From Scenedesmus sp. ARA3 (lineage: Eukaryota; Chlorophyta; Chlorophyceae; Sphaeropleales; Scenedesmaceae), in contig RWJK01001090.1 in the NCBI GenBank assembly GCA_004335835.1, positions 1-64,000 of the forward strand: a DNA stretch of 64,000 bases. The letters run 5' to 3'. This document shows positions 4,001 through 56,360 of the stretch, one piece after another. Numbering within the stretch: the first letter of the stretch is position 1; each line of letters starts with the position of its first letter. The position numbers were made by a program, and so were the translations under genes. The notes beneath the pieces were generated by a model. That model saw nothing but the letters and a program-made list of their open reading frames with translations. It ran no database searches and was not told where the DNA came from.

Positions 4001-7000
4001 TCTGCAACATGCCAGCATCCAGCAGCTGCCTCGCCTGCTGCAGCAGCTGCTGCTGCTGCCCGTGAGATGGCTGGCTGGTGTGGGCACGCAGCAGCAGCGG
4101 CACTGCCACTGCTACAGCGGAAGCCAAGCTCAGAGCCAGGTGCTTGCCTGCTGCTTCAGACAGCTGTGGAACACCATCCTCTGTTGCTGCAGGCTCTTCA
4201 TCTTGCAGCTCTGCCACTGCTGCTGCTGCTGCTGCTTGTGCGTCTCGCTGCAGCGGCTGCTGAGCTGGTGCAGGCTGCAGGGTGCAGCACATTGCAGCAG
4301 CGGCCTTCATTGTCTGCAGGCATTGCTCATGCAGCCCTGCTGCTGCAGCAGACACACCCAACTGCAGCCCAAGTGCTGCCAGCCACATACTCTGCTCATG
4401 AGTGTAAGGCGAGGGTGTCTGCTGCTGCTGCTGCTGCTGCTGCTCTGCAGCTGCTGTGGCAACTGATGCTGCTGGTGCTGCCAGCTGGTGCAGGCCAATG
4501 CAGCTGCAGTAGATACTGCACAGGTCAGTCAGCCTGGCTGTTTCAGAGCCAGTTGCAGCTGATGGGTGTGTGGCTGCAGCATGCTCTTGCTGGTACATGC
4601 TGTGCATGAATGATAGCGCTTGCAGCAGCCTGCTGCTGTGCCCTATGCCTTGATCAGAGTCAAAGGCTCTGCCATGTGCTGTCACTTTATCTCCTGCTGC
4701 CGCTGTTCTGCTCCAGCACTTGAGGACATGCCAAGCTGCGCTGCTGTTGCCTGCTTGCATGCACATCAGAAACGCAGCCTACAAGCAGTCAGGGAAGCAG
4801 CGCAGCAGCAGCAGCAGCAGCAGAATGAGCCATTGATTGTGACAATTTGGTCAGTTTCATAGCTCTTTCACTGCTGACGGCTGCATGCCGCCCCCACAGC
4901 AACACATTCAGCGCAGTTATATCCTCGCAAGCAACGCGAATAAGTCAAAGGGCAGGCGCTGCTAGTTAGCATGCTGCCACAATGTGCTCTGTACAGTAGA
5001 CGAGGCTGAAGGGGTGTCCTGCAAGAGGCTGCCCACCTGCATGGCCTCATTGTCAAAGTCCGTGCAGCTGCTCAGGGCATCAACAGCAGTTATACAATCC
5101 GCCGCCGCTGCTGCCGCTGCTGCTGCCGCTTCTGACCCGTTGCCCGTGCTGCCTGGCGGTGCTGCTGCTTCTGCAGTCCTGCGCATCTTGCCCTGCCCCT
5201 TCTTCGGCTGCTGCTGCTGCTGCCCCAGCTGTACCTGCAGCCTGATCAAGCACCCCAGCGCAGAGCAGCACCCTTCCTGCTGCTCTGCCAGGCCGATATA
5301 CTGCAGCGCTTTCTGCAGCTGCTGTGCCTTTGCGAGGCTCATTGCCAGCAGCCGTGCAGACCTGCCCACAGTGAGGCTGGTGCTGAAGAACACTGCTGGC
5401 GTGAGCAGGGCTATGGCTGGGGTGAAAGAATGGCGCTCGTAGTGGCACTGGCCGCGCTGGTGCAGCAGCGCGTGGCAGCGCTGGCAATCCTCCGGCCTCT
5501 GGGGTGGAGCAGAGTGGAGTGGTGGAGGGAGAGAGACAGGTGTGTTGTGTGTGTTGTGTGGTGGCACAGCTAAGTAGTTGGGCAGATGCAGGCACTCGAA
5601 TATGTCATATTTGAAATGAGAGCTGCTGCATGCTGTATGCAGCTACTGGGAATGGGCAGCAGATAGATGTGTGATTCGGCTTTGCAGAACAGGAGCAGAA
5701 GCTGCAGTTCAACAGCTGCTGCGCGTACCTGCAGCAGGTGCTGCGAGACTTCTTCAATGCTCAGCAGCTGCAGCACCAGCTGCTCCTGGCTGCTGCTGTG
5801 GCTGCTGCTGCACGCCTGCGGGGCGGGATGCGCAGGCAGGGCCACAGCAGCAGCGGGGCAGGGTCAGCAGCACGTGCCGTGATCAGTGTAAGCAGCATTG
5901 GTGAATGTGGATATTGACACCCGTGACCGGAGATGTGAAGCAAGGTGTAGCAAAAACCATCTGGCGCTGGAATGGCCACATTCCAACACTGCAGGGGATG
6001 CAAAAAAATTCACAAATCGAAGCGACTACCCTGCCTGTGCCGCAGAACCACCCTGCACAGTATCTTCACTGCAAACCAGACAGTACCTGATGTTCCAGCA
6101 GTCGCAGCGCCAGAGCCACAGCCACGCCATACGTGCTCCTACCAAAACAACGATGCTCCATCCACTTAGCTACTGAGAGCTAAGCTTACCTGATGTTCCA
6201 GCAGCCGCAGCGCCACAGCCACAGCCACGCCAGGCTGCCCCTGGCAGCGCTCCGCAGCAGCACCCGCCACCTGCTGCACCAGCTGCTGCACATCAACGCC
6301 AGCAGCGGCAACAGCACTGCTGCCTCCAGCAAGGACTCCTCCTGCTGCTGCTGCTGCTGCATGCATGCTGTCTGCTCGGCCTGCATGCACATGCAGTGCT
6401 TGCAGGGAAGCATCCACTACCGCACACGCTTCTGCTGTCGACTTCTGCTGCTGCTCTTGAGTGTGCTGGTCCTGGCCTGCCGCTGCTGCAGCAGCAGCAA
6501 GCTGGCTGCCCTGCTTCAGCCAGGCCACCAGCTCTGCTGCAGCTGCCACCAGCTTATTTTGACCAATCAGGGCACGGATTGACAGCTGCACAACAGCATC
6601 AGGGGAGGCGATGCAACCGCCTGACAAGTCCTGTAGGGTGCTGACACATTCCAGAGCTTTCGCATGCTGCTGAGTGGCTAGGTAGGCCTGACCCAGCCGC
6701 AGCAGCACCTGCTGCTGCACCCCAACGATATGCTGCACAACCGGAGACTGCGCTGCTGGCGCTGCTGCTGCAGCAGGAGAATCCACTGGTGCTTGCTGCT
6801 GTGCCAGCTGCAGAGCCTGCTGCCTGCAGTACTGTGTGAGTTGCGCCGCAAGCTCCAGCAGCTGGCATGCGCTGCTAACAGAGACGCCTGCTGCTGCAGT
6901 GCTGGTGCCAGCAGTGTTGCTGTCAGCAGCACCAGCTGCTGCAGTGCTGCTGTCCTTCTCCTCAGTCTTGCTGCTGCTGTTTGTGGTAAAATTGGCTTGG

Positions 7001-9802: not shown

Positions 9803-10931
9803 TCAGTCTCCGTGCTGCCTGCAGGCGGCCTTGCCAATGAAGTGCTGCCCCACGCGGCCCCGCAGCCACTGCCGGCAGCTGTAGCAGAAGTGGCAGTTGC
9901 AGGACCAGCAGCGCAGCAGGTTGTTGCGGCCCTCTCGCAGGTTCTCCTGCCCGCAAACGGGGCAGCGGCACAGCTGCACGCCTGGCGCGTTGCCGCGCAC
10001 CTACACCAGACATCAACAAAAAGCGGCAGGCATGCAGCAACCCCCAGGGTCAGCAGAAGCATGTGCGCAAACCATCGCTCAGCACAAACCGGCAGTGCAG
10101 CCTCGCACAATAAGTTGATGGTATGCATATGTACGCACCTGGCTCTCCAAGTTCATGAACACCTGCACAGGCGCCTTGCTCACCACGGACAACGCCACAA
10201 CAACAAAGTGCATGAAGTACATGCACTACACAAAGCAACACACAGTTGGCTGATGCCCGCCTCCGCACCTGCAGCATGACCTGGCCCGCCTCCACCTCCT
10301 GTGCGCGCTCGCCGCCCCACATCATCATCGCGTTCCAGCGGTTGATCTCCTCCTGGTCAAACATGTTGCAGTGCGACTCCTTGAAGTGGTCGTAGCCGCT
10401 GATGACCTGCAAAAAGTGTGTATGTGGTCATGGCAGGCAGAGCAGAAAAAGCAGTTGCAAAGCATCATCTGCGTTTGATCTCCTCCTGGTCAAAGATGCT
10501 GCTGGGGGAGTAGATGAATTTGTTGTATCCGGTGATTACCTGGCGAGCGGCAGGTTGTGAATGTATGGTCGTGGCAGGCAGAGCAGGAGGAGCAGTTGCA
10601 GAGCAAGAGCACTGGTCTGACTCCTCATAGTCAGTCAACATGTTGCAGCGGCTCTCGCAGACGGTGATGACCTCGCGGGCAGCGCCACGGCATGTGCAGC
10701 TCCTCAGCAGCCAGCAACCAAACCAGGCACGTCTGCAGCAATGTCAGCGGACAACCACTTCTGCAGCTGGTTCCCTGGCCCCCGCCCTCCCACCTGCTGG
10801 CACTTCCAGCACCAGGCAGCCCTGCAGTAGCCGCAGGTCATCTTGTTGCAGCCCTCGTTCTTGATGGTGGCCATGCCGCAGCCGGGGCACTTGCGGCTGG
10901 CGCCAGCCAGGTACTTTAAGCTCATGGCCTG

Positions 10932-10973
<42 letters not shown>

Positions 10974-11687: not shown

Positions 11688-11719
<32 letters not shown>

Positions 11720-11980: not shown

Positions 11981-12014
<34 letters not shown>

Positions 12015-12969
12015 GCCGCATACAGCAGTCAGCATCAGTTCCACCCCCCATCAAGCGTGACGAGCGCAAGGCACCCCAAACAACGCCATCGCAGCTCAAA
12101 ACTTTCCGAAAAAGCATGTCCAGCTGGTGAGCCGCAACACACCGCAGCTCAATTACCGACTGACATCCCCCAACTGCCAACCCAACCACCTCAATGGGCA
12201 ATTGCCAACGGCCAACCGCCAACACAACATAGCGCCCACCTCGCATAGCCGGCCTCTCCAAGCAGCTCCCGCACCACGTAGGCCGGCAGCGGCCGCCTGC
12301 AGCCAGGCTCGGGGCAGCGGATGTTTTCCAGCGCCCCCAGCTCCACCTGCGCTGCTGCTGCAGAGCGCAGGCAGGCGTTGCAGTAGTAGTGGCCGCAGTC
12401 GGGCAGCCGCAGGCAGTCCGAGCCAGGCACCTGCACACATACAGACGTGATGTGTTAAGACTGCTGCCTTGACCCCAGATGCCATCTGTTCTGTTGACAC
12501 CGACTTCTTTTGCGCACGTGCTGCAGGGCTAGCAGGCCTGGACTGCGTTGATTCAAAGGGCATCACAACGGACTGATGCTGAAACCAGAAACATATATTC
12601 TCAGAACAAAGCATACAGTAACATGTCACCAGTGCAGCTGACCAGCTGCGGCCGCAACCACCCACCTGGTCAAAGCAGATGTGGCAGGGCCAGCTGGCAG
12701 CCTAAGAATGCAGAGTAACACATAACAACCATGTTTGACCGTCAGTCAACGTCACCCACCTGGTCAAAGCAGATGTGGCAGGCCCAGCTCGCAGCCTCAA
12801 AGGCCTCAGCCTCAGAATGCACAGTGAAACACAACAACCATGTTTGACCGTTGGTCAACGCCACCCACCTGGTCAAAGCAGATGTTGCAGGTCCAGCTGG
12901 CAGCCTCGAAGGCCTCAGCCTCACGCGCAGCGCTGTAGCGCAGCAGCTGCACAGCCAGCTGCTCAACAC

Positions 12970-16164: not shown

Positions 16165-18694
16165 TGCGTCTCTGCTAGGCAACATGTTCCTGTCAGGAGT
16201 GATCTCAGTGTCGTCTGCACGCAGGACAAAAGTTCAGCTGCCTGGAGCTGTCAGAAACCTGCTGGCAAAGCTTAGCGCAAAACCAGGCAGCCTGCTCCTG
16301 CTGCTGCTGCTGCTGTTGCTGTTGCTGCTGCTGCTGGCCCACCTGAGCTGGTCCAGGCCATCTGCTAGATAGGCCAGCGCACGTGTCACTTCGGTGTCGC
16401 GGGCACGCTTGTCAGGCAGCCTGCAGGAACAGTGTAACGCTGCAAATGTCACATATGACTTTTGCACCCGGCTGGCTCTCAGTCACACATGCAGATGATA
16501 GCGCGGGGCTGCCGGCACTTGTCGGCACCCTTGTCGGCACACTTGTCGGCAGCCTGCAGGAGCACAACATGCCTAACTGTGTCCTTGGTTTGCTGTCAGA
16601 CACACAGCCAATGTCGAGCACGTATGTGTGTTGCTTCGCCAGCCATCCCAAACCCGGGCTGGCTGCATGTTGGCCAGTAGGTGCGCCACGTCATGTACGA
16701 TGCTTGCTTGTCAGCAGCATATGCACCATTCAACCCTAAACCCCTTAGTAATGACTCTACTCTGCAAGAACCTTTGCACCCACCGCGTGTTGGCGAGCAG
16801 GTGGGCCACGTCATGTACGATACTTGCTTGTCAGCAGCATATGCACCATTCAACCCTAAACCTCTTAGTAATGACTCTACTCTGCAAGAACCTTTGCACC
16901 CACCGCGTGTTGGCGAGCAGGTGCGCCACGTCATGTACGATACTTGCTTGTCAGCAGCATATGCACAATAAAACCCTAAACCCCTTAGTAATGACTCTAC
17001 GCTGCAGAACCTTTGCACCCACCGCGTGTTGGCCAGGAGGCGTGCCACGTCATCAACAATGACCGATGCTCTGCAGCAAAGCCATTAAGCACCACACCAA
17101 ATGTGACACCCCGCACCCACCGCATGTTGGCGAGCAGGTGTGCCACGTCATCAACAATGATTGCTGCTGGCGGCTGCTGCAGCAGGTGCAGGCAGGCGCC
17201 GTACTTGCGCAGTTGGTGCAGGTCGCTCACATACCTGCAGTGGCGAAATTGGTTTGCAGCGCGCAGCAGCATGCAGCATCGTGCAGCAGTGTGCATGTTG
17301 GGCATGGATCATGGGGCATTGCGCAGCGTTTGCTGTGTATCGCTGTCATCACTAATTTGTGAGCCATAAACGCAGCGCAGTATGCAGTAGAGCCCGCATT
17401 AACTTAAATAACATGAAACGCTGAAGAGTAAATGCCGTGCAGCTGGCAGTTGCATGCACATATATAGTGCTGCTTGACAGCCCCTTATGTTACTTATACT
17501 AAAACAGCTGCAAGAGCTGCATCATACTGGGCCCCTGCTCACTTGAAGTGGATCCTGCTGAATGCCGCATGCTGCTGTGACGCCCCAAATGGCAGCAGCA
17601 ACGCTACCGGCACATAAACTGCACAGCAACTTGTATTGCAACAGCAGTCGCACCCAGCCCTGCTGACATGTGAAGCTGAGCTCATCAGGCATTGCGAGCT
17701 GCGCTTCATTGCACATGCCATGCTCGATTCGACAACCCAACAAAAGCCAGTGACAGGAAGTTTCACGCGTACTTGCGCTAGTCCCCTGCTCACTTGAAGT
17801 GGATCCTGCTGAATGCCGCATGCTGCTGTGACGCCCCGAATGGCAGCAGCGGCGGCGCCTGGTCCAGCTGCGCCCTGTCACACATGAACACCACCTCTTG
17901 GCCGCTGCAGGCCAGCTGGAAAGCATACTGGAACAGCAGCGAGGTCTTGCCGCTGTATGATAAGATAAGAACAGCAGCCAGAAGAGGCGGCAGGCACGGC
18001 AGCAAGTAGAATGGTGGCTTCTGGGTTGGTGGTTGGTGTGCTGCTATACAGTGTGCTGCTATGAGGCATATGGTTATGGTAAGGTTGCAGTAATAGAAAG
18101 CAGATCTGGAAGAAGCAGCCAGAAGAGGCGGCAGGCACGGGAGCAAGTAGCATGGTGGGGTGTGTGCTGCGGTGCAGTGTGCGGCACAGTGTGCTGTATA
18201 CTGGAACAGCAACGAGGTCTTGCCGCTGTGTTGTAAGAACAGCAGCCGGGAGGGGTGGCAGGTGTGGGAGGAGGTGGACTGATGGTGGGTGTGCAGCATT
18301 GCAGTGTGCTGCAGATGTGGCATGTGGCTGTGGGAAAGTGGCAGTGATGGGCAGCAGGGATGCTAGGGCCACTTCACTGGGTGCTGTGTTGTGTACGCGA
18401 CACATGCAGACATGATAATTATGCAACAGGATATGCCAAAATCTCTGTTGTGACTACTCCAGGTCGAATCAGCTGCTGTTGGTCTGCTGGCGCTGCTGCT
18501 GGTGCTGCCATGCCCTGCAGCTGCAACCTAACCACTGGCACTGATTCCACAGGCATGGCTAACCGCCCTCACCTCCGCTGTGGCCCCAGCAGCAGGCACC
18601 TTGGTGTTGTCAGCTGTATGTGGGGCAGGGCATTGATGGCCAGCTGCTGCGAGGGCTGCTGCACAAACTGCCCCAGGCTGATGCTGCAGGACAT
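15588..18694 (-). CDS. SWSAP1-like RecA-fold ATPase (recombination mediator)
   Basis: Six exons join in phase to 243 residues: 18694-18573, 17952-17794, 17234-17121, 16420-16343, 16088-15976, 15733-15588. Exons 1/2 create a Walker A, GPQRSGKT at residues 37-44, split inside the Ser codon. Exon 3 carries a Walker B, 'AAIIVDD' at residues 117-123. Between them 'FSRIHFKYVSDLHQL' resembles the SWSAP1 segment just before its Walker B. Length matches SWSAP1 (about 230 residues). In animals SWSAP1 pairs with the SWIM protein SWS1/ZSWIM7 to support RAD51 loading, including in meiosis. The protein could instead be another small RAD51-paralog-like ATPase. Exons 2 and 3 are flanked by multiple echoes of themselves. 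The gene is divergent from the nucleotidase gene across about 510 bp. Confidence 0.62.
16664..17060 (-). repeat. Array of four exon-edge echoes of SWSAP1-like exon 3 (donor side)
   Basis: Real exon 3 ends 'DVAHLLANMR' at 17121 before GTGGGT. Copies end at 17033 ('DVARLLANTR', donor kept), 16914 and 16794 ('VAHLLANTR', donor kept) and about 16666 (donor lost). The two units 16681-16800 and 16801-16920 differ at about three of 120 positions, so at least part of the array is recent. Each unit also contains one ACCCTAAACC, which is not a telomeric array. Confidence 0.9.
17543..17604 (-). repeat. Exon-edge echo of SWSAP1-like exon 2 (donor side)
   Basis: About 61 bases, nearly identical to the end of exon 2 (17794-17854), encode 'ASQQHAAFSRIHFK' and carry the same AAGTGAGC donor. 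The copies are 251 bp apart. Confidence 0.88.
18198..18231 (-). repeat. Exon-edge echo of the Walker A exon (acceptor side)
   Basis: An extra copy of the start of exon 2, ACACAG followed by bases for 'SGKTSLLFQY', lies about 280 bp upstream of the real one (17952). It keeps its acceptor AG but runs into non-coding sequence. Confidence 0.85.
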
Positions 18695-19203: not shown

Positions 19204-21223
19204 ATGGCTCCTCGTAAACTCACCATCATTCATTTCAACGACGTTTACAACATCGAACCTTGTGCCAATGAGCCAGTGGGAGGAGCTGCACGGCTCGTAC
19301 ACAAGGTGACCATCAGGACAGCAACAAGCAGCAGCAGGAACAACAGCTTCGTGGCACATGCGTCAGTCCTGCAAGCTATCATTTGCAGCAAGCAGATCAA
19401 CAAAATTACCTCCTTGCTGAATCAAGGCAGAAGCCTGCAGGCAATGTGCCAGCAACATGCGCCCGTGAATGCGGTTGCAAGAGCAAGCAAGCACATGTGC
19501 ATGTACATGCCTTGCACCTGGCTAGGCAATGGCGCATCACAGCACGCTGCCAGAGCACGCCCTGAGAACAGCAGCCCAGCGCTTTTCACTCATTGTGTCT
19601 CACCTATTACCTCGCCATCTTGGTCACACAGTAGCAGCGGCAGCAGCAGTTTGACCATGCATATGCCTGCAGCGATGAGGTCTCTTGCCAGCGTGCCAGT
19701 CCCAGATGCCTACAGCAGCCTAATTTCAAGGCTGCTGGGGTTGCAGCGAGCTCGTTTCAACGACGTGTATGTTGGCAGGTTCACAACCGTACGTGTGACA
19801 GGTCAGTCTGCAGCTGTGCCTGTAACTCCTTCTCGACTTGGTTTGTCGGGCCGTGACTGTGCTGCGCTGCGACTTATAAGACCATCTGTCACTGCCCGCT
19901 GCAGGTCAAGCAGCTCGTGTCTGATGCTGGCGGCGCTGATGCCTGCCTGGTACTGTTCAGCGGTGACGCCTTCAACCCCAGCCTCATGAGCACCATGACG
20001 CTGGGCAAGCAGATGGTGCGTACCTTGAAAGTGACGCTTTGCTAAGCAGCTGGCGCGTGGGCACATGCACCCCGATAAGCATATTGACTCTGAACGACCA
20101 GGTGGTGCACATGTGTGGGCACACATGCGTCATGTCTTAGGGCAGCGGCAGCGCAGCAAAAGCAGGGCTTGCTCCCTGTTCTGCGTAACTTCTTGACTGG
20201 GGTCCGCCCTGTGGGTTTGCAGATTACACCAGCATGCCATACTATGCAGGACAGCATGCACAAGACTTCTGCAACATCCGTACTAGCAGCATCCAACCAT
20301 GTCGGCCAACCCTGTGCTGCTGCACACTCTGCAGGTGCCAGTGCTGAAAGCAGCAGGCGTGGCAGTGGCATGTGTTGGCAACCATGACTTTGACTTTGGC
20401 ATCAAGAACTTCAGGTGCGGCTCGTAACACATTACATACACTTGAGTTCTTTTCTGTGTGTTGGTTCTATCTACTTTAGGCTTATTCTATTGCAAGTGAT
20501 TTGGGCATGACACGACTCTGGACTCAGCTACCCAACACATGCAGGCCAGCGTAGTGCAGCTGCCTGCGCTGCAGCTATGACGGCAGCTGCTTCCGCTTTG
20601 CAGTCAGGTTCAAGGTTTAGGCACTTTAAACCCCAAAAACTTCAGAATACTTAAAGCATCGCATCCAGGTGTGCCTCGCTGACCTCCTTCCTTATTTTGT
20701 ACTGTATCTGATGCTGCAGGGACCTGGCAGCAGAGTGCGGCTTTCCTTGGCTGATGGCCAACGTGCTGGATGTTGAAACAGGTGTGAATGCAGCGCGAGC
20801 TGCAGCACCTAACACATTGCAAGGCAGGCCTGCAGTGTATAGCAGGCCTGCAGTGTACAGCTGTTCACAGTTGAAGCAGCACATCAACACAGTTGTGCAG
20901 CCACTGTGTGTTGGTTGCCCCTGCTGCACAGGAGCCACTAGAAGGACATGCTTGAACTGTCAAGCTGAAACAACGATAGCGGGGCCCAGAACTTTTGGAT
21001 GTGTGTATGCAACTGTGTGGTGATTGCTTCGTTGCAGGGGAGCCGCTGGGAGGCGTAGGCCGCACGCTGCTGCTGCAGCACCCCTCAGGCATCAAAGTGG
21101 GTGTCATCGGGCTGGTAGAAGGCGACTGGTGAGCTGGCAGCAGCAGCAGCAGCAGCAGCATTCCGCACCCTTCAGGCATCAGTGTGGGAGTCATCGGGCT
21201 GGTGGAGGGTGGCTGGTTAGACC

Positions 21224-21279
<56 letters not shown>

Positions 21280-24200
21280 CGCAGCAGCAGCAGTCATGAG
21301 CAGCCAAGCTGCTATGCACCTAGGTGTAAGTATACTGTTGAGGTTGGCACAGCAGCGACTAATTTATGGCACATTGGCGTGCACATGTTGATAGCACTCC
21401 TTTGCACGCCTGGCACAGCAGTCCTGCGACGTGCTGCGAGACATGTCCAGTGTTTCCCTCTACTGACAACCTTGTAGGCGAGCTGCACAGGTCTATGGGT
21501 GTTCAACGCCTGCCTGGTGAACACAGAGTCTATCACACATTTGTTACATGTGCTAAAATAATAACACAATGAGCTCCAACCGCATCTCCTTGCTGCCGTT
21601 TTTAATTCAGGGTGGAGACGCTGGCATGTGTGGAGCCGGAGGAAGTACAGTACCTGGACTTTGTGACTGAGGGGCAAAAGCTGGCGCGCGAGCTGCGGGT
21701 AAGATGCAGCAAACACAGGCTGTTCATTGTGATGGCGATGAGTTGCCTGCCTGGACTTTGTGATGGAGGTGAAGCAACAGAAGATGACTGCTGAGCCCGC
21801 GTTTAACTTGCACACAAGCAAAGGCCAAGCCGCCTGCCCAGACTGAGTGCGGGAGGGGCAACGTGCTGCGTGCGATTGCTGACAAGCCGGATCAGTCGCT
21901 GCACAAGATGCCTTGTAACCTCTTCACGCAGTGCAAGCGGCTGGCGCGCGGTGGTGGCGCTGATGCCATGCAGCAATGGGTGCAGCATTGCTTGAAGGCC
22001 TGCCAGTTGCAGCAAATCATGGTTTCTGCTGTGCAGGCGGCTGGTGCTGAGCTGGTGGTGGCGCTGACGCACATGCGCATGCTGCTGCATTTGAATAGAA
22101 TGCTGACGGGCCTGGTTCAAAAGCTGCATAACACACCTTGTTTTTTTATCATGTGGTGCAGGCAGCTGGCGCTGAGCTTGTGGTGGCGCTGACGCACATG
22201 CGCGTGCCCAATGACATCAAGCTGGTGCAGTCAGTACCGGAGATAGACGCTGTGCTGGGCGGGCACGATCACCACGTGCAGGTGTGGCTCAGTGCTAGAT
22301 AGATAGAGGGGTTACACGGTGTGTTCATGCGGCATACGCCACCACATACATTTCTTATGCATTACAACAGCACAGCTGGCTTAGCACTGTTGTACATTGT
22401 CTAAAGATGTACAACACGGTAAAATGTCTAAGAGCTAAGTAGGCTTGGCTCTACTCATGGGCAGTTGCGGTGTGGGTTGTTGCTCCAGCATGCAAACTCA
22501 TTGGTTGAGCATCACGTGTTTAATGGTGCACGTGTGCGCTTGCGTGTGTGGTGTGTCTGCCCTGCAGATAGAGTTGGTGCAGCCGCACGGCAACCTGCTG
22601 TGCAAGTCAGGCACGGACTTCAAGAACGTCACTGCAATTGAAGTGACAATGCCAGAAGCAGCAGCGGCAGATGGGGACAGCACGACTGCCAACGGCAGCA
22701 GCAGCCAACCTGCCAATGGCGCAGCAGCAGCAGCAGGCCGGCCATCATTCAGCTGGCAGGAGCATGCCATGACTTCAGATGTGCCGGAAGATCCAGACAT
22801 AAAACAGGTGGGGGCTGGGGGCCAGCCCTGGCACTGCTATGCGGGCATGCTGGTATGTAGTCTGACAGGCAGTAGCAATGAAGTATGGCGCTGCTGTTGC
22901 ACATCCAGCCTTGTCACAACAAACAAGTTGATGGTGTTTGCCTGTCAAGTACACCAATTGGATCCAAGCACTTGAACAACCACACCACCTTATGCTACCC
23001 AGCATCCGCCTGACCACCACCGGTGGTTCCGTCTATGCCTGCTGTTGTGGCTGCACTAACCAGGTGGTTGAAGACTTTGCATCTTCGACAACTGCCGGCC
23101 TGGATGGAGAGCTAGGCCACACACTAACAGACCTGGATGGTAGATTTGCAACAGTGCGCATGGCAGAGTCCAACCTGTGCAACCTGCTGGGCGACGTGTT
23201 CCGGCGCGCGTGCAGCGCTGACGTGTGCATCCTGAACAGCGGCACCTTCAGGTGGATTTTTGTTTTGGATTGTTTGGTTTGGATGGGGGTAATGTGTGCA
23301 TCCTCAACAGCGACACTTGCAGGTGTGGTGTGTTTCTGCCTGTTTTGAATTCGTTGTGCTGACGTGTGCATCCTCGACAGCGGCACCTTCAGGTGGGATT
23401 TTCTTTTGTTTGGTTGTGACTGTCCTGACGTGAGCATCCTCAACAGCGGTACCTGCAGGTGGGTTTGTTTCGGATTGTCTGGTTTGGATCAGGTAATGTG
23501 TGCATCCTCAACAGCGACACCTGCAGGTGTGGTTTGTTTCTGCTTGTTTGTAACTTGTTGTGCTGACGTGTGCATCCTCGACAGCGGCACCTTCAGGTGG
23601 GATTTTCTATTGATTGGTTGTGACTGTCCTGACGTGAGCATCCACAACAGTGGCACCTGCAGGCGGGGTTTTGTTTTGGGTTGTTTGGTTTTGACTGTGT
23701 TGATGTGTGCATCAACAGCTACACCTTCAGGTGAAGTTTGTTTCTGATTATCTGGTTGTTGCTGTGCTGACGTGTGTATCTTGAACAGCGGCACAATCAG
23801 GTCGGGTTCATTCCTGAAGTTGTTGTGGCCCTGCTGGCGCGTGCATTGTGGTATAGCCGCACTGCTTACAATGAATGCTGCCGTCCAGCCGCTCACGCCG
23901 CCCTATCACTGTGCTGCCATGCACGTCTGACGCGGTGCACCCCGCAGGCGCGCTCACGCACCGCGACCTGGCCTGCATCCTGCAGATTTGATGCATCGCA
24001 CTCAGCAGGCGCGCAAACTCAACTCAAACCGACCTGCTACCTTGCTGCATTGCAGGTCTGACGCGGTGCACCCCGCAGGTGCGCTGACGCACCGCGACCT
24101 GGCCTGCATCCTGCAGATTTGATGCATCGCACTCAGCAGGTGCACCAAATCACCTTGACCTGCTACCTTGCTGCATTGCAGGTCTGATGCCATTCACCCC

Positions 24201-25743
24201 GCAGGTGCGCTGACGCACCGCGACCTGGCCTGCATCTGTCAACTTTGCTGCTCACAATGCCACATGTGCACGTGTATTTTATATATGCCCAATGCTGCAC
24301 TGTCATCGTGTGGCATGCAGGTCTGATGCCATTCACCCCGCAGGTGCGCTCACGCACCGCGACCTGGCAACCATCCTGCCCATGATCGATGACACGGTGG
24401 TGCTGCAGGCCAGCGGGCAGCAGCTGCTTGAGGCGCTGGAGAACGGCGTCAGCTGCTACCCCAAGCTGGAGGGCCGCTTCCCACAGGTGACACCCATTTT
24501 AGGTATAAATTATAACTTTGATTTGATGTTTCAAAGGCCAACTGCACGTGTCACTGACATGTCACAAAGCTGCAAATTTGAATGGTATCAGCTGCTACCC
24601 CAAGCTGGAGGGGCGCTTCCCGCAGGTGACATCAACTTCAAGTATAATCTCGATTAGTTATTTGATGTTTTTTTTACAAAGTGCACGTGTCACTGACATG
24701 TCACACTGTTTCAAAGAGAACGGCGACAGCTGCTACCCCAAGCTGGAGAGGCGCTTCCCGCAGGTGACGCCAGCTTCATGAACATATCTGAATCGGACTT
24801 TTGATGCCAGCTGCACTATTCAATGAAATGTCACGTCACTTCAGAACTCTCACAGCCACGCTCAGCAAAAGGCACTCCAGCCTGACGTCAGTGTCTATGT
24901 TTGCCAGCTGTTTGCCAGCTGTCTTCATTGACAAAGACTAAGCAAGCATAACGCCACCGCCTGCAGGTCAGCGGCATCAGCTTTGCCTTTGACCCATCGC
25001 AGCCGCCCGGCTCAGGCAGCCACACTGCTGTGCTTCATAATATTTGTCATTAGCCCGTTGCTGCCTGCAGGTCAGCGGCATCCGCTTCACCTTCGACCCC
25101 TCAAAGCCGCCAGGCAGCCGTGTGCTGCACGACTCAGTCACAGTCGGCAGCGAGCGGGCACCCCTGGATCCTGCTAAAACCTACACCCTGGCAACCAAGG
25201 CCTACCTGGCAGCGGGCAAGGATGGCTATGACGTGCTGCAGGTGTGTTGTTAGCAGGCTTGAGCTGTGTGCATATCTCAAGACATCTCCCCTGGCAACCA
25301 AGGCCTACCTGGCAGAGGGCAAGGACGACTACGATGTGCTGCAGGTGTGTTGCTAGCAGGCTTGAGCTGTGTGAATATCTCAAGACATCTCCCCTGGCAA
25401 CCAAGGCCTACTTGGCAAAGGGAAAGGACGGCTACGATGTGCTGCAGGTGCAAGTAAGACTGGTTGTGCACATATGCGTGTTTAGAAACATGCGCCGTGG
25501 CCACCAAGGCCTACCTGGCAGAGGGCCAGGGCGGCTGCAATGTGCTGCAGGCGAGCAGCAGGCCTGCACTGTGCACATGTTGAGATACATGTGTCCTTTT
25601 CTGTGGTCTGACACAACATAATGAATGGCGGTGGACTCCTGACTGCTTGATCCTGGTCTGGTGCATAATTGCGCGGGCAACAGTTTGTTTGTGAACGCTG
25701 TGTGACTGCTGCACCACATGCCTGCCTCTCTGCCTTGCTGCTG

Positions 25744-25802
<59 letters not shown>

Positions 25803-25852
25803 NNNNNNNNNNNNNNNNNNNNNNNNNNNNNNNNNNNNNNNNNNNNNNNNNN

Positions 25853-25910
<58 letters not shown>

Positions 25911-26940
25911 AACACCCAGGGCTGCCGTGTGCTGATGGATGCGGAGGTGTGCCCGGTCATGCCCAGCGTGCTGCGCAACTTCTTTGCCATGCTGGAGGTG
26001 GGGTTCTGATAGGTTACTGTTGTCTAGGATCATTGCTGGTTTCCTTGAAAAGGCTTGGAGTGTGCGTGATATTTGCAAAACATAAAGGAGCAGTGCTCCC
26101 TCCTGTTGCCGCTCCAGTGGGGCGCAGGGGCGATGGCGTTGATGTAAGGTAAGCTATGGCTTGATGGGTAACGTGATGATGGTGCCATGCTGGAGGTGTG
26201 GGCTCCCACTGAGGCAGATGTGGAGACAAAAGTGGCTGCTGCAGCCTCGTGCTCACAGCACAAAGCTGGCTGGCTGGCTGATGGCAGGCAGATAGGACAT
26301 ACGCATTTGTGCTCCTTGCTGCACCCTTGGATGCGCTGGAAGCTGTTGCTGCTTTATTGATTGTGCTGGTGGACCCCTGCTGCTGGACCCCAACGATCAA
26401 GGTTCTGCATTTACGCACACCCCAGCATCAGCATAAGGGCATCTAACACCGTGGCTGCTGTGTTCCCCATGCAGGTGCTCAACCTGCTGGCAGCCAACGA
26501 TCAAGGTTCTGCATTTGGGCACCCCCCAGCACCAGCATAAGGGCATCTAACACCGTGGCTGCTGTGTTCCCCATGCAGGTGCCCAACCTGCTGGACCCCA
26601 AAGTCAACATCAGGGACACAGACAGCTGCATTTGTGCACCCTCAGCACCCTTGACCGCGCCAACAGCTGTTGCTGCTGTTTTGCCCATGCAGGTGCTCAA
26701 CCTGCGGGATCCCAAGATCACTACCAACTGCACATTGGCGCCTTTTCATGTGACTTCAATCTCTGCCTGCTGCTGGCTCATATTACCTTGCAGGTTCTCA
26801 ACCTGCTGAATCCCAAGGTCATGGTATAGACTCTTGCCAAGCGCTGGACGCAAGCGCATGCCTGCGCAGGCAGCCCAGACACATGCACCTGGGAACCTAT
26901 CAGCACCCTTGAGGTCTCAAACTGCTGCTGCTGCTGTGGC

Positions 26941-26973
<33 letters not shown>

Positions 26974-27291
26974 ATAATTCTTCACCTGCAGGTGCTCAAC
27001 CTGCTTGACCCCAAGGTCAAGGTACAGACCTTCGCCAAGCGCTGGACGCAGGCCATAAAGCACAAGGGCCGCGACAGGCAGACAGACCTCATCACAACCG
27101 GCGGCTGCGTGAAGTGCCCGCAGACGGGGCGCTATGTAGTGGCCCCCAAGCTTGATGGCCGCATCACGTGTGTGGGCCAGCAGCAGCAGCAGCAGGAAGA
27201 GCGGGAGCAGCAGCAGCAGCAGCAGGCCCCTGCCTGTGAGGCGCTTGCTGGTGCTGGCAAGGGGTCCGCAGCGAAGAAGCAGAAGCAGTAG
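19204..27291 (+). CDS. 5'-nucleotidase / cyclic phosphodiesterase-family metallophosphatase
   Basis: Thirteen exons join in phase to 598 residues: 19204-19305, 19905-20015, 20335-20414, 20720-20781, 21038-21128, 21611-21698, 22162-22281, 22568-22807, 23064-23251, 24321-24486, 25071-25241, 25920-25997, 26992-27291. An in-frame ATG at 19177 could add nine residues. Metal-site motifs of the calcineurin-like phosphoesterase fold are in order: 'HFNDVY' (residues 10-15), 'SGDAFNPS', 'GNHDFDFG', 'THMR' (about 189) and 'GGHDHH' (about 211). The C-terminal nucleotide-binding domain starts near 'NSGTFRSDAI' (exons 9/10). No signal peptide is seen, so it is probably cytosolic. The final exon ends in a Gln/Lys-rich tail. 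Expected activity is hydrolysis of nucleoside monophosphates or related phosphoesters; substrate unknown. Its introns hold most of the echoes in this window. Confidence 0.88.
21168..21215 (+). repeat. Exon-edge echo of nucleotidase exon 5 (donor side)
   Basis: Copy of the exon 5 end: 'HPSGISVGVIGLVEGGW' followed by GTTAG, against the real 'HPSGIKVGVIGLVEGDW' followed by GTGAGC. A CAG run joins the two; spacing 87 bp. Confidence 0.85.
21750..21955 (+). repeat. Degenerate echoes of nucleotidase exon 6
   Basis: At 21750-21785 the DNA repeats CTGGACTTTGTGA and the following A/G-rich stretch of exon 6. At about 21935-21955 only GGCTGGCGCGCG is shared. These are old or weak copies; the second is uncertain. 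Confidence 0.45.
22036..22092 (+). repeat. Exon-edge echo of nucleotidase exon 7 (acceptor side)
   Basis: A GTGCAG-preceded copy encodes 'AAGAELVVALTHMR' and then diverges, 126 bp upstream of the real exon 7 at 22162. It includes the conserved THMR motif. Confidence 0.88.
23291..23800 (+). repeat. Array of eight exon-edge echoes of nucleotidase exon 9 (donor side)
   Basis: Real exon 9 ends at 23251 with bases for 'ADVCILNSGTFR' before GTGG. Eight further copies end at 23322, 23392, 23458, 23526, 23596, 23662, 23730 and 23800 (steps of 66-71 bp). Seven of eight keep GT after the AG; the sixth has GC. Copies 1/4, 2/5 and 3/6 match best, so the array looks like a three-unit (about 204 bp) block that was itself duplicated. 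The spacers between copies are T/G-rich. Confidence 0.95.
23924..24240 (+). repeat. Array of three exon-edge echoes of nucleotidase exon 10 (acceptor side)
   Basis: Copies start at 23924 (AG lost), 24056 and 24182 (AG kept) before the real exon 10 at 24321. Each encodes 'SDA(V/I)HPAGALTHRDLA' and then diverges. Steps are 132, 126 and 139 bp. Confidence 0.93.
24580..24763 (+). repeat. Two exon-edge echoes of nucleotidase exon 10 (donor side)
   Basis: The end of exon 10, encoding 'SCYPKLEGRFPQ' before GTGACA (24486), recurs ending at 24625 and 24763, both with GTGAC donors. Steps are 139 and 138 bp. Exon 10 is thus echoed on both sides. Confidence 0.93.
24968..25020 (+). repeat. Exon-edge echo of nucleotidase exon 11 (acceptor side)
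   Basis: A CTGCAG-preceded copy encodes 'VSGISFAFDPSQPPGS', against the real 'VSGIRFTFDPSKPPGS' starting at 25071. Spacing 103 bp, the same as the donor-side array of this exon. Confidence 0.9.
25287..25550 (+). repeat. Array of three exon-edge echoes of nucleotidase exon 11 (donor side), exact 103-bp period
   Basis: Real exon 11 ends at 25241 with 'LATKAYLAAGKDGYDVLQ'. Copies end at 25344, 25447 and 25550, exactly 103 bp apart. The first two keep GT; the last has GC. Each copy preserves an open frame across its exon-derived part. Confidence 0.95.
25738..25909. repeat. CTG microsatellite containing the assembly gap
   Basis: A pure CTG run flanks the block of Ns on both sides, immediately before exon 12 of the nucleotidase gene. 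The assembler evidently could not size the repeat. Confidence 0.95.
25803..25852. other. Assembly gap, 50 N
   Basis: Exactly 50 N lie inside the CTG run of intron 11. The round number suggests a placeholder, so the true repeat length is unknown. Confidence 0.98.
26184..26197 (+). repeat. Short echo of nucleotidase exon 12 (donor side)
   Basis: TGCCATGCTGGAG followed by GTGTGG repeats the end of exon 12 (25997, GTGGGG). Short, but in the same position pattern as the other echoes. Confidence 0.5.
26475..26830 (+). repeat. Array of four exon-edge echoes of nucleotidase exon 13 (acceptor side)
   Basis: Copies of the exon 13 start ('VLNLLDPKV') begin at 26475, 26579, 26693 and 26794, each after CAG; the real one begins at 26992. 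Steps are about 104, 114, 101 and 198 bp. The first two units also share a long intronic stretch around CATAAGGGCATCTAACACC. Confidence 0.93.
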
Positions 27292-35895: not shown

Positions 35896-36933
35896 GTGGC
35901 AGTGCAGTCCGATGTTGCCTTCAGCAAAGCAGATCAACAGCTGCAGCAGAAGCCTGGCAGTACATCACAACCAGCAGCAGCAGCAGCGGCAGCGGCGGCA
36001 TTATGGCGGCATCGGCTTTGTGGAGTGACCTGCAGCCTAGTGCTGCACTACTGGAAAGGTGGCTCAGTAGCTGCTGCGCTGCAGCTGCTGGATGGTCAGC
36101 TGCTGCTGCAGCCTGCAGACTGTCAGCTGTGGAGCCTTGCAGGACGGCTGTTCCTGCAGCTGAATGTGCTGCAGCAGGCACACCGCTGCTTCACCAAAGT
36201 AGCGGAGCTGGTGCAGCAGCAGCAGCAGCAGCAGCAGCAGGGTGAGGCGGCCGATGTGATGCGGCTGCGGCAGCTGGTGCATCACAACTGGGGCTGCTAC
36301 CACGCGTTGACCAACAACATGACTGCTGCACTGCATGAGTTCGACTCAGCGCAGCAGCTGGCAGCAGCAGCAGCAGCAGCAGCCAGCGCCGTCAGCGATG
36401 ACGCCAACACCAACATACAAGCAGCAGCACTGCCTGCAGTTGATGGCGTGGCGCTGTCCAACAGTGCTGTGTGTCTGCTGCACATGGGTCAGCTCACTGA
36501 GGCCATCAGCTGCCTGGAAGCAGGGCTGCAGCAGCACCCAGCAGACACAGCACAGGTGGGAGACAAGCTCAAGCTCATAGCGTTCCTGCAAGCAGTGCTG
36601 CTGCTGCTGTGCTGCATGGATGAGCGCTTTTTGGTCCGTCTGGCGTACTCAACTGGCCGGCCTGCCCTGACCAGCTCTATTGTGCTGTGCAGTAGCGCCC
36701 CTTGTTTAATCAAGTGAATGTAACACACAGCATGCTGTTTGTACCGAAATGATGTCATCATGTGCGCCGCTGCCCTGCAGGAATGCACGCTGCTCAACCT
36801 GGGTATCATGTTTGACCTGGCCTACAGGACCAGCAGCGCGCAGCAGGCGCGGCGCCACATCGCCAGCAGCCTCATGCGCAGCGTGCCTGACGACTTTGAC
36901 CTGGCAGTGATGGCGCCGGAGCATGGCAGCTGA
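34757..36933 (+). CDS. TRAPPC12: TRAPPC12 homolog, TRAPP complex TPR subunit
   Basis: Four exons (34757-34822, 35080-35428, 35675-36555, 36781-36933) join in phase to 482 residues. After an Ala/Gln-rich N-terminus, conserved blocks match the TRAPPC12 C-terminal half in order: 'VPFGLLYLRAQLPA', 'LWRHRLCGVTCSLVL', a TPR array 'LWSLAGRLFLQLNVLQQA', 'NWGCYHALTNNMTAAL', 'ALSNSAVCLLHMGQLTEA', and the terminal exon 'LLNLGIMFDLAYRTSSAQQ'. TRAPPC12 is a subunit of metazoan TRAPPIII, which acts in ER-Golgi traffic and autophagy. The human protein is longer (about 735 residues), so an upstream exon may be missing, though its N-terminus is poorly conserved. Poly-Gln and poly-Ala inserts separate the blocks. 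An internal 28-bp repeat (GTAAATT.TTCCGTTGTATCA) lies in intron 1. Confidence 0.82.
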
Positions 36934-36984
36934 TGTTTTGGTTTCTTTGGACATCCCAGGCAGCTTCCTGCGCAGCATGCCCGG

Positions 36985-37060
36985 CCATCACTGCTAGGTC
37001 AAAGTCATCGGGCACTTTGACCTAGCAGTGATGGCGCCAGAGCATGGCAGCTAATTGTTA
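36985..37060 (+). repeat. Fold-back echo of the TRAPPC12 3' end, perfect 21-bp hairpin
   Basis: Arms at 36985-37005 and 37014-37034 are perfect reverse complements (21 bp), with the 8-base loop CATCGGGC. The right arm continues as a direct copy of the last coding bases and stop region (36893-36935): ACTTTGACCT.GCAGTGATGGCGCC..AGCATGGCAGC. So the gene end is present in sense, inverted and sense orientation within about 170 bp. Confidence 0.95.
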
Positions 37061-37765
37061 TGGATGTTTGGAGCCTGTTATGGCTCGTATGCTGTCGCAG
37101 TGTGTATGCTACAGCGGTTGTTTGGTTGGCAGCTACTGCCAGGCCGCTCGCAGTACCACGGCTGTCGATGCATTGCTTCATTACGTCATTGTTATAGCTG
37201 TTTTGTGATTTGCAAGCAAATCCACTTGCCGCCTGCTGAAGATCACATGACACGGGCACGAATGTCCGTGGTGTCTTTCCCCACCCACGCAGTCTATCTG
37301 TCTCGTACGTTTGATATATACAGTCAGTTTCGACCAACTTCAAATGATGTTGCTGCACGTCTGAATGATCTTCCAGGCGCTCGGCTGTGCACAAAGTGTA
37401 CACGCCAGCAGAGTAAGTTGTTTGTATGAAAGCCGGTTTGAATGTGCCTGTTCCTTCGCATGTCACATATTAGTCTGTATTATTCGTCATACCTAAATGG
37501 TCGTAACCATCAGCAAGGCATGTTTCTAACTCAGCGCACACTTTCCCTCGCATTCCTCACCTTGACAAGACAAGCCTGCCTGGTTGCCAGCAGCCAACGT
37601 TGATCATAAAATAACTTATTTCTTGACCTATCACGGTTCAGTAGTTGCTGAGCTGTGCATCGACAGCCACGCTCTATTGGCGCCAGCGCTGGCGCCCAAT
37701 TGCTGGTTGCTGAGGGCTTCCTCGATAATAAATACATTTTCCTGATATCAATCTTACCATTCACA
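37061..37765. other. Intergenic before the alginate-lyase-like gene
   Basis: No coding exons seen. It should contain the TRAPPC12 3' UTR end and the promoter of the next gene. Nothing else could be supported. Confidence 0.4.
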
Positions 37766-51130: not shown

Positions 51131-51880
51131 GCACGGCAAGGGCTGCTGAGCCCCAGATGCACCTCCCTGTTGCACCACCTCAAGGCCAAGTGCTTGCCGA
51201 GCTGCAGCAACACGGCCGCGTGCAACCCTGTTGCTGCAGGTCCAGAGACATCTGCCATAGGCAGCCAATACGCAACATAACAACGTCAATGCTGGGGCGT
51301 GGGAAGTCCCACGTGCACAACAGCACCCACAATCCTGCCACACGCCAAGGGCTGCTGAGCCCCCGTTGCACGTCCCAAATGAATCCCCTCAACTCAAGTA
51401 CTTGCCAGCTGCAGCACCCCGGTCGCGAGCAACCTGGCTACTGCAGGTCCAGAGACATCTGCCGAAAAGCAGCCAACATGTATGTAACCCGTGTCTTCAA
51501 CGCATCAGAAATAACTTAAATCATGCTGGGGTGTGGGTCCCGCATGCCCCGCATGCTAAATTCGCCAGGCCTCGCTGGAAGCAGCAGCAGCAGCAGCTGC
51601 CACCAGCCAGGTGCTGCGCAGCAGGCCTCGAACACGTCACTGAGCCACAAAAATCCTGCCACACGCCAAGGGCTGCTGAGCCCAGATGCACCACCCTGTA
51701 AACACCCGCTGAACTCACAAGTACTTGCCAGCTGCAGCAACCAGGCCGCAAGCAACCTGGCTGCTGCAGGTCCAGAGACATCTGCCACAGGCAGCCAACA
51801 TGTAACACAATGTATGGAGCATAACAAGCACGATGCTGGGGTGTGGAAAGTCCCACATGCCCCGCATGCTGAAATAATAA
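51131..51880. repeat. Three-unit tandem repeat, about 215-320 bp
   Basis: Units near 51131, 51345 and 51662 share AAGGGCTGCTGAGCCC, TTGCC(A/G)GCTGCAGCA, and a nearly invariant CTGCAGGTCCAGAGACATCT. Between them CATGCTGGGG(C/T)GTGG recurs three times. On the minus strand one unit could encode 'QMSLDLQQ', but frames do not persist. Confidence 0.75.
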
Positions 51881-52605
51881 CCAGGACTCTTAAAAAAAAC
51901 CCAAGCAGCAGCAACCACCAGCCGGGTGCTGCCCAGCAGGCCTCAACACACGATGGCACGAGCATTGATTGGAGCACGCAGTGCCGACACCCGAAAGCAC
52001 CGTCACACACATATCATGGGATCATCCCATCATTGATGGAAGGGACACCTCACATTGCTGGGACGCAAAGCTGGAACGCACAGTTCTGGCAGGCCAGCTG
52101 GCAAGGCAGCGCAGCCCAAAGAGACACTAGATGCCAGCACAGGCCAGTTGCACAGGCATAAGTGGTGTGGATGGTGTGAAACATCAAGCACGAAAGCTGT
52201 ACAGCACTTCAATTACCAGCCCCAGTCAGGCCTGAGGATGCAGTACAAGCAGCCTCAGATTGTTTACGGTGTGAGAATTTCCACACGTTGCAATGCTTTT
52301 TGGGGTACACCCATATGAACACATAGTCTAGATAACAATAGGCAGCATGCATACAGTACTTGGTTCTTTGTCGTGCAGCAGCAGCGCCGCAGTTTGGCGC
52401 TTTTTGCACAGCCGGCCGCATCAAGGACGGCACCGAAGCAGCCAAACAACCACCTTTCAGGTCACTGCATCCCCTTCCAACAACAGATGAAACATCCTCG
52501 CCAATTTGATAATGTTTGAGCACCGTGTATGTGCAGCCGGCAATACGCAATGCCATGTATAGCAGATAGACACGCCAAGTGTCTATTGCTCTGCCTCAGC
52601 AGCAC

Positions 52606-54294: not shown

Positions 54295-55682
54295 GTATTT
54301 CAAGATGTGGGGTCGAAATGTTGTTTTCACCTTGCAGGAAAGGCTGCAAGGCAGCCAACAGGCAGCACCGGGGTCGAGTCACGTATGCACAAACAACTTC
54401 AATCGATGCCTAACGGCAATGTATAACAGAGGGTTTGCTGATATTGCTGTAAAGATTGCACGGTGGTGCAGGAGGCCCTTTGCAAGACGCGGATCAAGCC
54501 CAGCTGGCCTTGGAAGGGGCGCCTTAACCCTATCCTCACCTTAGACGCACGGCACAGTTGCAGTGTTCTGATACTTTAGGATGTTTGAAATTGCAGGACG
54601 TCTCGTAGAAGCTGAAATTGCACGTGCTGTCGCCAGTCTTGACCTTTTTGTGTGCGATGCAGCGGACTTTCACTGTGCAAGCTGGCAAAGTTGTGAACAG
54701 CGCCAGGTAACACGATGCAATAGTCAGAATAAAGACCTCGAACAGTTTGAGCCACCAAGCGGTGTGCGTGGGTGTGGTTGTAGACCTTATCAAACTCTGA
54801 TACCCGGGGGCACCCGGGGGTGCTCTCCACCACACGCAATCCTCCGACGATGCCTCCGGCGACGTGACCATGTCTTCCACAGCTGCATTTTGCATGTCAG
54901 AGGTACGGTTTCGCAAATAAGGCTCAAAGTGGTGGGGCTGAGGCCGTTTGGCAGCGTCCCGAGAACCACGTGGCAGCCACGTGGGAAGGGGTGTCAACCA
55001 GGCCCCAGTGGTGACGCAAATGAAAAGCAGCGGCATTCGCAATGCGAAAGCTGCAAAACTGCATAAACATAATTTTGTCACTCATTTCGAATCGTAAATC
55101 GCTTGCACACGCTCTGAGCTGCCATCCACAACCCTGCCTCCACAGCAAATGCAGAGTGACAGGTTGCACCAGGGCCCAACACACCATAGCCGGCAAAACG
55201 CGGTACATTCGTTAAGAAGCAGCAGATGAAAGACGCACTGCACGAACCTGCTACAGCAGGGAGCCTTGGCACCAGGTGTGCGCAAACACCAAATGCAAAT
55301 CTTACTGTTGCACAGGCTGCGGCCGCCGCCGCCGCCAAGTGCGGCACTTGAATGTCAGGGCCTCCCTCGAAGCGCACACTTCACGCTGCGCCACATAAAG
55401 AAAGTTGCCAATTGCATTCATTACAAGCATAAGCATGATGCAACATAATGCGTACTCACATGGCAAGAAGTGGTCCCCCGAAAGGCCACCATGGCTGCTG
55501 AACCTCAGATTAGCATGTGCAGCGCCACACAGAGCTTGCACACTGCAGCACCTTGCAGCTGTCAAACTGAAGTGCGCAGTGCTGGCAAGAAGCACGTAGG
55601 CAATACTGCAATGTGTGTTACCTGCAATTCTTTATACTAAAAATGGGGGCGCGGGCTGTGGTATGCAGCGTTGATGCAACGA
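54295..55682. other. Interval between paralog B and the OCP3-like 3' repeats
   Basis: It should hold paralog B's promoter. A 181-codon minus-strand open frame (54536-55081) contains one hydrophobic stretch ('FEVFILTIASCYLALFTTL') but no family motif. The plus strand carries an overlapping 161-codon frame. I do not call either a gene. Confidence 0.4.
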
Positions 55683-56360
55683 GTAACCACTACTGCAAGT
55701 CGAGACGCTGCGCCGGCAGCCCTCCGCAGCAAACGCACCACAGATGCACATTTCAAGACGCTGCAGCTGCACACCCAAAGTGCCCACCAGGTGTGACTAT
55801 GCCTGCCAAACAATGGGCGCTCTGAAACTGCATGTGCAGTGCCCAATAACCGAGGCACTCCAGCTCTGGCGTTCAAAGGGCAGTTTCTGACCAAAATCGG
55901 CAAAACGGCCTTTCCTACGCACACAGCCTGCCTTCCTGCCTCACAGAAACCACTGCTGGAAGTCCAGCGCTGCGCTGGCAGCCCCTCCGCAGAGCATATG
56001 CACCACCGCATTGCACATACTGCAGCTGCACACCTGAAGTGCCAGCTGTCTCTCCGCTTGCCAAACAGTGGGCGCTCTGCAGCCAATGGTGCAGCGTCAA
56101 AACCCAAGGCGCCCAGACTATGCAGAGCAGCCCACGTCCAAAACAGGCATCGCCTGTCACACACGAAGTGCCTGCCTTCCCGCCTCACAGGAACCACAGC
56201 TGGAAGTCCAGCTGCTGCGCCAGGCCTGCGTGGTCATGCTGCAATGCCCATGCGCCACACACCCTCAGCATGATGCCGTGTGCCGCACGAGGGTTGGATT
56301 GCACTGCACAACTGGAGCACCAACAACACGTGACGCGCTGCAGTGCACACACAAAAACAT
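55683..56360 (-). repeat. Three echoes of the OCP3-like gene's 3' end, stop codon included
   Basis: The coding end 'GLPAQRLDFQQWFL' plus TGA (56364) recurs downstream near 56185 ('AQQLDFQLWFL' plus TGA), 55941 ('RWTSSSG' frame; bases CTGGACTTCCAGCAGTGG, TGA kept) and about 55683-55715 (degenerate). Unit length is about 180-245 bp. Between copies the shared sequence includes GAGCGCCCA(C/T)TGTTTGGCA and GTGTGCAGCTGCAG. The same GTGAGG could be a donor, so the real end could continue in an unseen exon. Confidence 0.85.

Follow-up and report, generated by a model that had tools for sequence, protein, structure and literature searches.

Exon-edge sequences are repeated in the same orientation within the adjoining introns of Scenedesmus genes

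Segments that span exon-intron junctions in the green alga Scenedesmus sp. ARA3 are repeated, on the same strand, within the adjoining introns. The initial annotation described these repeats (here called echoes) in a 64 kb window, which is the whole stretch of DNA first analyzed and constitutes the beginning of contig C774 (164 kb) in an assembly of 87.3 Mb and 1567 contigs. We confirmed the observation and found that echoes are widespread beyond the window. On balance, and with moderate confidence, we regard them as the surviving products of undirected local tandem duplication that have passed through a coding filter, and in which the exon-derived part has been preferentially retained or refreshed.

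Extent, strand, and polarity of the echoes

We enlarged the sample to 17 pieces of the same genome (316 kb in total, about 296 kb without N) and modeled genes with a gene finder trained on the sample itself, which yielded 30 genes and 446 exons. The predicted donors are mostly CAG/GTG and the acceptors mostly TGCAG/G (slash at the junction). Sixty bases from each well-supported exon edge were compared with the exon's own intron at a score of at least 40. A same-strand copy was present for 34 of 263 donor edges and 31 of 270 acceptor edges in the 316 kb sample, and control searches of reverse-complemented, foreign, and shuffled introns gave 0 of 263 donors and 0 of 270 acceptors. The initial annotation had named enrichment over shuffled introns as the check on its claim, and in this sample that enrichment is clear.

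The strand bias is also evident without gene models. Self-BLAST of the window (E ≤ 1e-4) gave 58 same-strand pairs and 1 reverse-strand pair less than 3 kb apart, versus 4 of each kind farther apart. Among local pairs in the sample with a score of at least 60, 264 were same-strand and 7 were reverse-strand; 48 of the 264 are coding repeats of contig C1000, and because those repeats are coding, C1000 was omitted from the pair analyses. One segment of that contig (C1000:10001-20000, at 1-4163) carries long arrays of about 78-base units lying wholly in predicted coding sequence, probably a repetitive protein. C1000 also differs in codon usage, with a correlation to the window contig of 0.55, the odd one among 12 contigs with more than 400 codons; the other 11 of the 12 gave r of 0.90-0.99, and the idea that the assembly combines two organisms was not supported.

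A search with exon sequence only identified 131 echo copies in the sample without C1000, some of them around mis-modeled exons. In the window we count about 38 echoes, comprising 27 from this list and a further 8 (23.29-23.81 kb) and 3 (26.47-26.72 kb) read by eye directly in the sequence, so that the earlier estimate of about 45 copies was of the right size. The window features are as follows.

6187..6232, minus strand: coding donor edge; pairs with 6084-6129 at 95.7% over 46 bases
6084..6129, minus strand: echo of donor edge 6187-6232 (pairwise alignment)
10338..10464, minus strand: acceptor edge of predicted exon 10269-10406 with adjoining intron; pairs with 10471-10605 at 74.8% over 135 columns
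10471..10605, minus strand: echo of acceptor edge 10338..10464 (self-BLAST pair)
12869..12923, minus strand: coding donor edge of exon 12869-12976 (gene model, array analysis)
12658..12814, minus strand: echoes of donor edge 12869..12923, unit 109 bases (tandem array)
17113..17165, minus strand: coding donor edge of predicted exon 17117-17234 (gene model, local pairs)
16668..17053, minus strand: echo array of donor edge 17113..17165, unit 120 bases, 94% match, 0% indels
17783..17850, minus strand: coding donor edge of exon 17794-17952 (gene model)
17532..17599, minus strand: echo of donor edge 17783..17850, 67 of 68 bases identical, intron-side homology not found
20400..27290, plus strand: gene richest in window echoes, putatively 5'-nucleotidase-like by its motifs (sequence reading, gene model, predicted protein)
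21078..21128, plus strand: coding donor edge (gene model, local pairs)
21165..21247, plus strand: echo of donor edge 21078..21128 (self-BLAST)
22156..22207, plus strand: coding acceptor edge (gene model, local pairs)
22031..22082, plus strand: echo of acceptor edge 22156..22207 (local pairs)
23218..23253, plus strand: coding donor edge of an exon missed by the gene finder (read from sequence)
23293..23808, plus strand: array of 8 echoes of donor edge 23218..23253 (sequence reading, self-BLAST)
24344..24379, plus strand: coding acceptor edge (sequence reading, gene model)
23912..24236, plus strand: echoes of acceptor edge 24344..24379 with part of the intron tail, unit 131 bases
24439..24486, plus strand: coding donor edge (sequence reading, gene model)
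24580..24778, plus strand: two echoes of donor edge 24439..24486, unit 139 bases
25071..25115, plus strand: coding acceptor edge (sequence reading, gene model)
24959..25011, plus strand: echo of acceptor edge 25071..25115 (self-BLAST, local pairs)
25186..25241, plus strand: coding donor edge (sequence reading, gene model)
25289..25560, plus strand: three echoes of donor edge 25186..25241, unit 103 bases
26987..27053, plus strand: coding acceptor edge (sequence reading, self-BLAST, gene model)
26461..26855, plus strand: four echoes of acceptor edge 26987..27053 (sequence reading, self-BLAST)
36893..36951, plus strand: predicted gene end, stop codon side (gene model, local pairs)
37014..37072, plus strand: downstream copy of gene end 36893..36951, 86.7% (local pairs)
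56361..56419, minus strand: coding donor edge of predicted exon 56368-56838 (gene model, local pairs)
55682..56221, minus strand: three echoes of donor edge 56361..56419 (at 55682-55730, 55937-55995, and 56182-56221)

The single protein predicted at 9803-18694 (minus strand) probably merges two genes; one end carries putative cysteine-rich, ring-type motifs and the opposite end a putative RecA-like nucleotide-binding stretch.

Polarity is nearly invariant. In 68 of 95 exon-overlapping pairs the echo lies on the intron side of the splice edge that it includes, which corresponds to 68 of the 70 pairs classified as splice-edge pairs and agrees with the proposal that the outermost copy is the coding one. 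The two wrong-side echoes (2 of 95) both occur at exons that are probably mispredicted. Both copies fall in predicted exons in 19 of the remaining pairs, 3 pairs are whole-exon copies, 2 lie within an exon, and 1 lies past a stop codon. That last pair (36893/37014) is the single stop-codon-side repeat classified; the initial annotation had spoken of gene ends being repeated downstream. The gene finder is imperfect and at times calls echoes as exons; with both copies called in 19 of 95 pairs, exon-edge echoes are a practical trap for gene prediction.

The clearest case is the CCT-alpha gene on contig C1492 (locus L035, C1492:1501-11500), for one exon of which TIGR02340 is the best family. All nine of the introns read (9 of 9, 1.4-9.4 kb of the locus) contain a copy of a neighboring exon edge, and often several copies, at a spacing of about 100-180 bases, and the nucleotidase-like gene at 20.4-27.3 kb of the window has the same echo anatomy. 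Near three CCT-alpha exons (at about 3898-4030, 5491-5581, and 7108-7239 of the locus), the parts copied on the acceptor side and on the donor side nearly abut, as if the exon were split mid-way.

Contiguous arrays and exon-limited pairs

Some arrays are contiguous, with exon and intron parts alike (units of 103, 104, 109, and 120 bases; 89-95% match, 0% indels), and these demonstrate tandem duplication of whole units. Offsets to the nearest copy peak at 100-140 bases (46 of 125). In 85 exon-edge pairs, the exon part has a median length of 52 nt and the similarity extends into the intron by 8 nt (45 donor pairs) or 10 nt (40 acceptor pairs), which is roughly as long as a splice motif. The ends of these exon-limited pairs are thus not random, which we explain by retention rather than by placement.

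Intron-side homology was present in 7 of 15 pairs with at least 95% identity, 5 of 28 at 90-95%, 5 of 18 at 85-90%, and 11 of 14 at 80-85%, a group rich in long alignments. These counts include one hand-added pair (90158/90279) and supersede a test of 50-base flanks, in which 11 of 16 pairs with at least 95% identity had no homology, compared with 8 of 15 in the wider test. Among the 43 pairs with at least 90% identity, 31 had no homology past the splice motif; the pair 6277/6458 of the CCT-alpha locus is identical at 73 of 73 bases, with intron-side homology absent. This class counts against plain tandem duplication, and it also fits copying of the exon edge alone.

Exon parts outlast spacers. 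When CCT-alpha echoes were compared with one another, identity was 90% in the exon part (0.7 gaps per 100) and 78% in the next 45 intron bases (10 gaps per 100), the latter not far from what shuffled sequence gives. In 15 contiguous arrays, mismatches amounted to 9.1% in the exon part versus 13.2% in the intron part, and there were 14 gaps in 1478 columns versus 74 in 1711. If exon part and spacer decayed neutrally at the same rate, neither the CCT-alpha contrast nor the 31 of 43 close pairs would be expected; the conflict with the 15 contiguous arrays is less clear. That the exon part survives longer suggests that it is re-copied from its coding counterpart. On one reading the coding exon, as the sole stable template, refreshes the exon part; on the other, certain events copy the exon edge alone. 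Intermediates such as C774:90158/90279, with 39 identical bases and spacers that are related but much changed, favor refreshing. The intron part has diverged no further than the exon part in 4 of these 15 arrays, indicating that refreshing is not universal. No direct conversion tract was seen, mismatches being distributed rather uniformly over the copied sequence (0.07-0.115 per bin).

We also analyzed whether the junctions attract duplication. Of 39 non-simple tandem arrays, 21 cross a junction, 9 are intronic, 4 lie within exons (3 on C1000 and 1 on C1100), and 5 are outside gene models, two of which (89380 and 90841) look like exon edges of an unmodeled gene. In the window, tandem arrays outside gene models occupy 61131-61919 (about 130 bases) and 51132-51949 (about 200-530 bases). 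Junction-crossing arrays thus make up 21 of 30 genic arrays (70%). We simulated this share by placing a hand-compiled list of 25 unit lengths at random on echo-free gene structures and scoring tolerated events, which gave 58.3%. The two values are not clearly different, and contiguous arrays therefore need no targeting of junctions.

These results suggest the following sequence of events. Frequent direct tandem duplications, with offsets mostly of about 100-145 bp, would hit genes at more or less random positions. Those falling inside an exon would alter the protein and be lost. A duplication across a junction would leave the coding copy outside and the extra exon piece within the intron; judging from the reading frames, the echo would be spliced out and the protein kept, allowing the event to survive. 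Such a coding filter would by itself account for the polarity and for the outermost copy being the coding one, since the protein is preserved in no other arrangement. The spacer would later drift, and the exon-derived part would stay similar because its exon partner is held by selection and the echo is occasionally re-copied by local gene conversion. The duplications might arise by fill-in and joining of staggered breaks, or by end joining after aborted synthesis.

The initial annotation proposed an ongoing, lineage-specific process that expands introns from their edges. Copy identities ranging from about 75% to 100% are in keeping with an ongoing process, and in echo-rich contigs introns with echoes are longer (median 434 nt) than those without (274 nt); a mechanism directed at exon edges is not required. 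Should the process operate across the genome, introns can grow from their edges and accumulate cryptic splice sites without being selected to do so. Very local gene conversion would become measurable through the contrast between exon part and spacer, with echoes as dated snapshots of exons.

A different account of the same observations is that each event inserts the exon edge only, up to the splice motif, for example from a pre-mRNA or splicing-intermediate template during break repair. The short intron overhang and the close pairs that end at the splice motif are what it predicts, and we nevertheless consider it rather doubtful, because contiguous whole-unit arrays exist and certain spacers are related though decayed. 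Copies of exon-exon junctions did not come to notice incidentally, and a spliced template is at odds with the copying of GT or AG and a few intron bases. A broader version, in which exon edges are standing templates and gene conversion or RNA-templated repair keeps copying them into the neighboring introns as far as the splice motif, seems to us a tentative possibility, slightly easier to accept; each intron would then preserve a series of snapshots, taken at different times, of the ends of its own exons.

Splice sites, reading frame, and other origins

The initial annotation noted that most echoes keep GT or AG and described them as stacks of decoy splice sites. The dinucleotide is indeed kept in 117 of 131 echoes, and this is not special, since the identity of the remaining sequence predicts 110. 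A first count of 76 of 78 was biased, because copies had to reach the junction to be included, and special retention did not survive the recount. As GT or AG is lost about as fast as the other bases of an echo, the notion of decoy sites kept for use is not supported.

In 90 pairs (5292 columns), 18 of 19 gap runs break the reading frame, and mismatches at codon positions 1, 2, and 3 number 106, 95, and 274. We also compared 8 CCT-alpha arrays. Changes private to echoes (23 lineages) were distributed 16, 17, and 36 over the three codon positions and changes private to the coding copy (8 lineages) 2, 1, and 12. Per site, the change in echoes was about 7.5% at third and 3.4% at other positions, versus about 7.2% and 0.9% in coding copies. 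Echoes are thus hit at every codon position, though less at the first two than at the third, as though they had been coding sequence for some of their past. Such a bias fits copying from an exon that was itself evolving, at various times; partial constraint on the echoes might also produce the third-position excess.

Selection of echoes as alternative or decoy splice sites would account for the longer survival of exon-like parts, for the third-position excess among echo-private changes (36 of 69), and for the presence of GT or AG in most copies. We judge it improbable, as the remaining 33 of 69 echo-private changes fall at first or second positions, GT and AG decay about as fast as their surroundings, and many genes have no echoes at all. 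Protein-level constraint does not fit the frame-breaking gaps. Alternative or mutually exclusive exons, which would have a selected frame and selected splice sites, are likewise not indicated in these pairs and echoes, in view of the frame-breaking gaps (18 of 19) and the ordinary GT/AG retention (117 of 131 versus 110 expected). From their sequence, the echoes look non-functional.

Wrongly stacked haplotypes or repeats could in principle generate exon-limited similarity with synonymous-biased differences in an assembly of 1567 contigs with N runs in its repeats, and we consider such an artifact very unlikely, because the copies are of many ages, end mid-exon, are frameshifted, and have a fixed polarity, and because two searched spacers are single in the assembly. 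Least probable of the explanations considered is intron birth, by the AGGT tandem-duplication model or by insertion of an introner-like element: duplicated AG/GT junctions abound, but none of 177 introns had at least 20 of 30 matching bases when exon end was compared with intron end and intron start with next exon start (an ungapped 30-base test that misses weak traces). Three echo spacers searched against the genome also gave no repeat family of the kind expected of introners or mobile elements: two have no match other than themselves, and the third has local copies plus matches to three short stretches (33-39 bases) elsewhere.

Related systems and regional distribution

The nearest parallel that we found is the potato RdRp gene, where a direct tandem duplication across an intron-exon boundary (acceptor junction) is attributed to tandem genomic duplication (PMC4974935). 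Intron tail and exon start are duplicated there with the same geometry as in an acceptor echo. The potato duplication is a single case, which produced a new spliced intron and an extra exon piece (PMC4974935); in Scenedesmus, arrays occur on both sides of introns in many genes and are predicted to be spliced out inside existing introns. Same-strand adjacent copies with both exon and intron sequence, as in potato, are found here in the 21 of 30 genic arrays, and the intron part is invisible in the 31 of 43 close pairs. The AGGT model of intron gain is similar in that tandem duplication supplies an extra AG and GT, and differs in that the duplicated exon segment becomes the intron, of which the 177 introns bear no signature.

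Direct duplications also arise in break repair. Worms with the helq-1 mutation acquire small tandem duplications of about 100 bp to 10 kb, with a median of about 1 kb (PMC8654963), and mouse cells acquire them by joining of protruding ends (PMC5730883). Compared with the worm median (PMC8654963), offsets here are shorter, near 100-145 bp, and the arrays are multicopy, although such sizes are not direct evidence on the pathway.

Minisatellites within introns form direct arrays with units of tens to hundreds of bases. The echoes resemble them in orientation and unit size; they differ in that their units straddle splice junctions, are locus-specific, and have spacers that decay faster than the exon parts. 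Among the titles and abstract openings surveyed, none describes arrays of exon edges at both ends of introns, a weak negative given the partial coverage. What is unusual is the density of echoes and the similarity that stops at the splice motif, within a known kind of mutation, tandem duplication.

Echo density differs strongly among regions (P about 4e-9 over 11 contigs). Edges with echoes number 31 of 147 on C774 (94 kb used), 9 of 28 on C50, and 9 of 23 on C1492, a share of 20-40% in this group, and 0 of 83 on C200, 0 of 25 on C300, 1 of 42 on C1, and 1 of 48 on C100, or 0-1 per contig. The statement that echoes occur across most genes therefore fits the window and does not extend to every region. 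The echo-free C200 includes a gene with 38 predicted exons that is putatively P4-ATPase-like by its motifs. Echo rate tracks simple-repeat content over the 11 contigs (rho 0.65, P 0.03). CTG/CAG tracts were rejected as a trigger, as in echo-rich contigs they occur in 14 of 49 echo introns versus 64 of 153 echo-free introns.

In genome-wide tables of family matches, we looked by eye for neighboring same-strand matches whose model ranges share at least 20 residues. This insensitive survey, which had no control, gave 3 overlaps among 59 CCT/TCP-1 matches (C1492 twice, C1032) and 4 among 145 kinesin matches (C1467, C1127, C899, and C577).

Telomere-like words (TTTAGGG/CCCTAAA and rotations) occur 60 times on the CCT-alpha locus, compared with 2.4 in shuffled sequence. 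When all introns of the sample are divided into fifths, the G-rich form numbers 23, 14, 6, 11, and 1 and is found mainly in the donor half, and the C-rich form numbers 1, 1, 9, 15, and 12 and is found mainly in the acceptor half.
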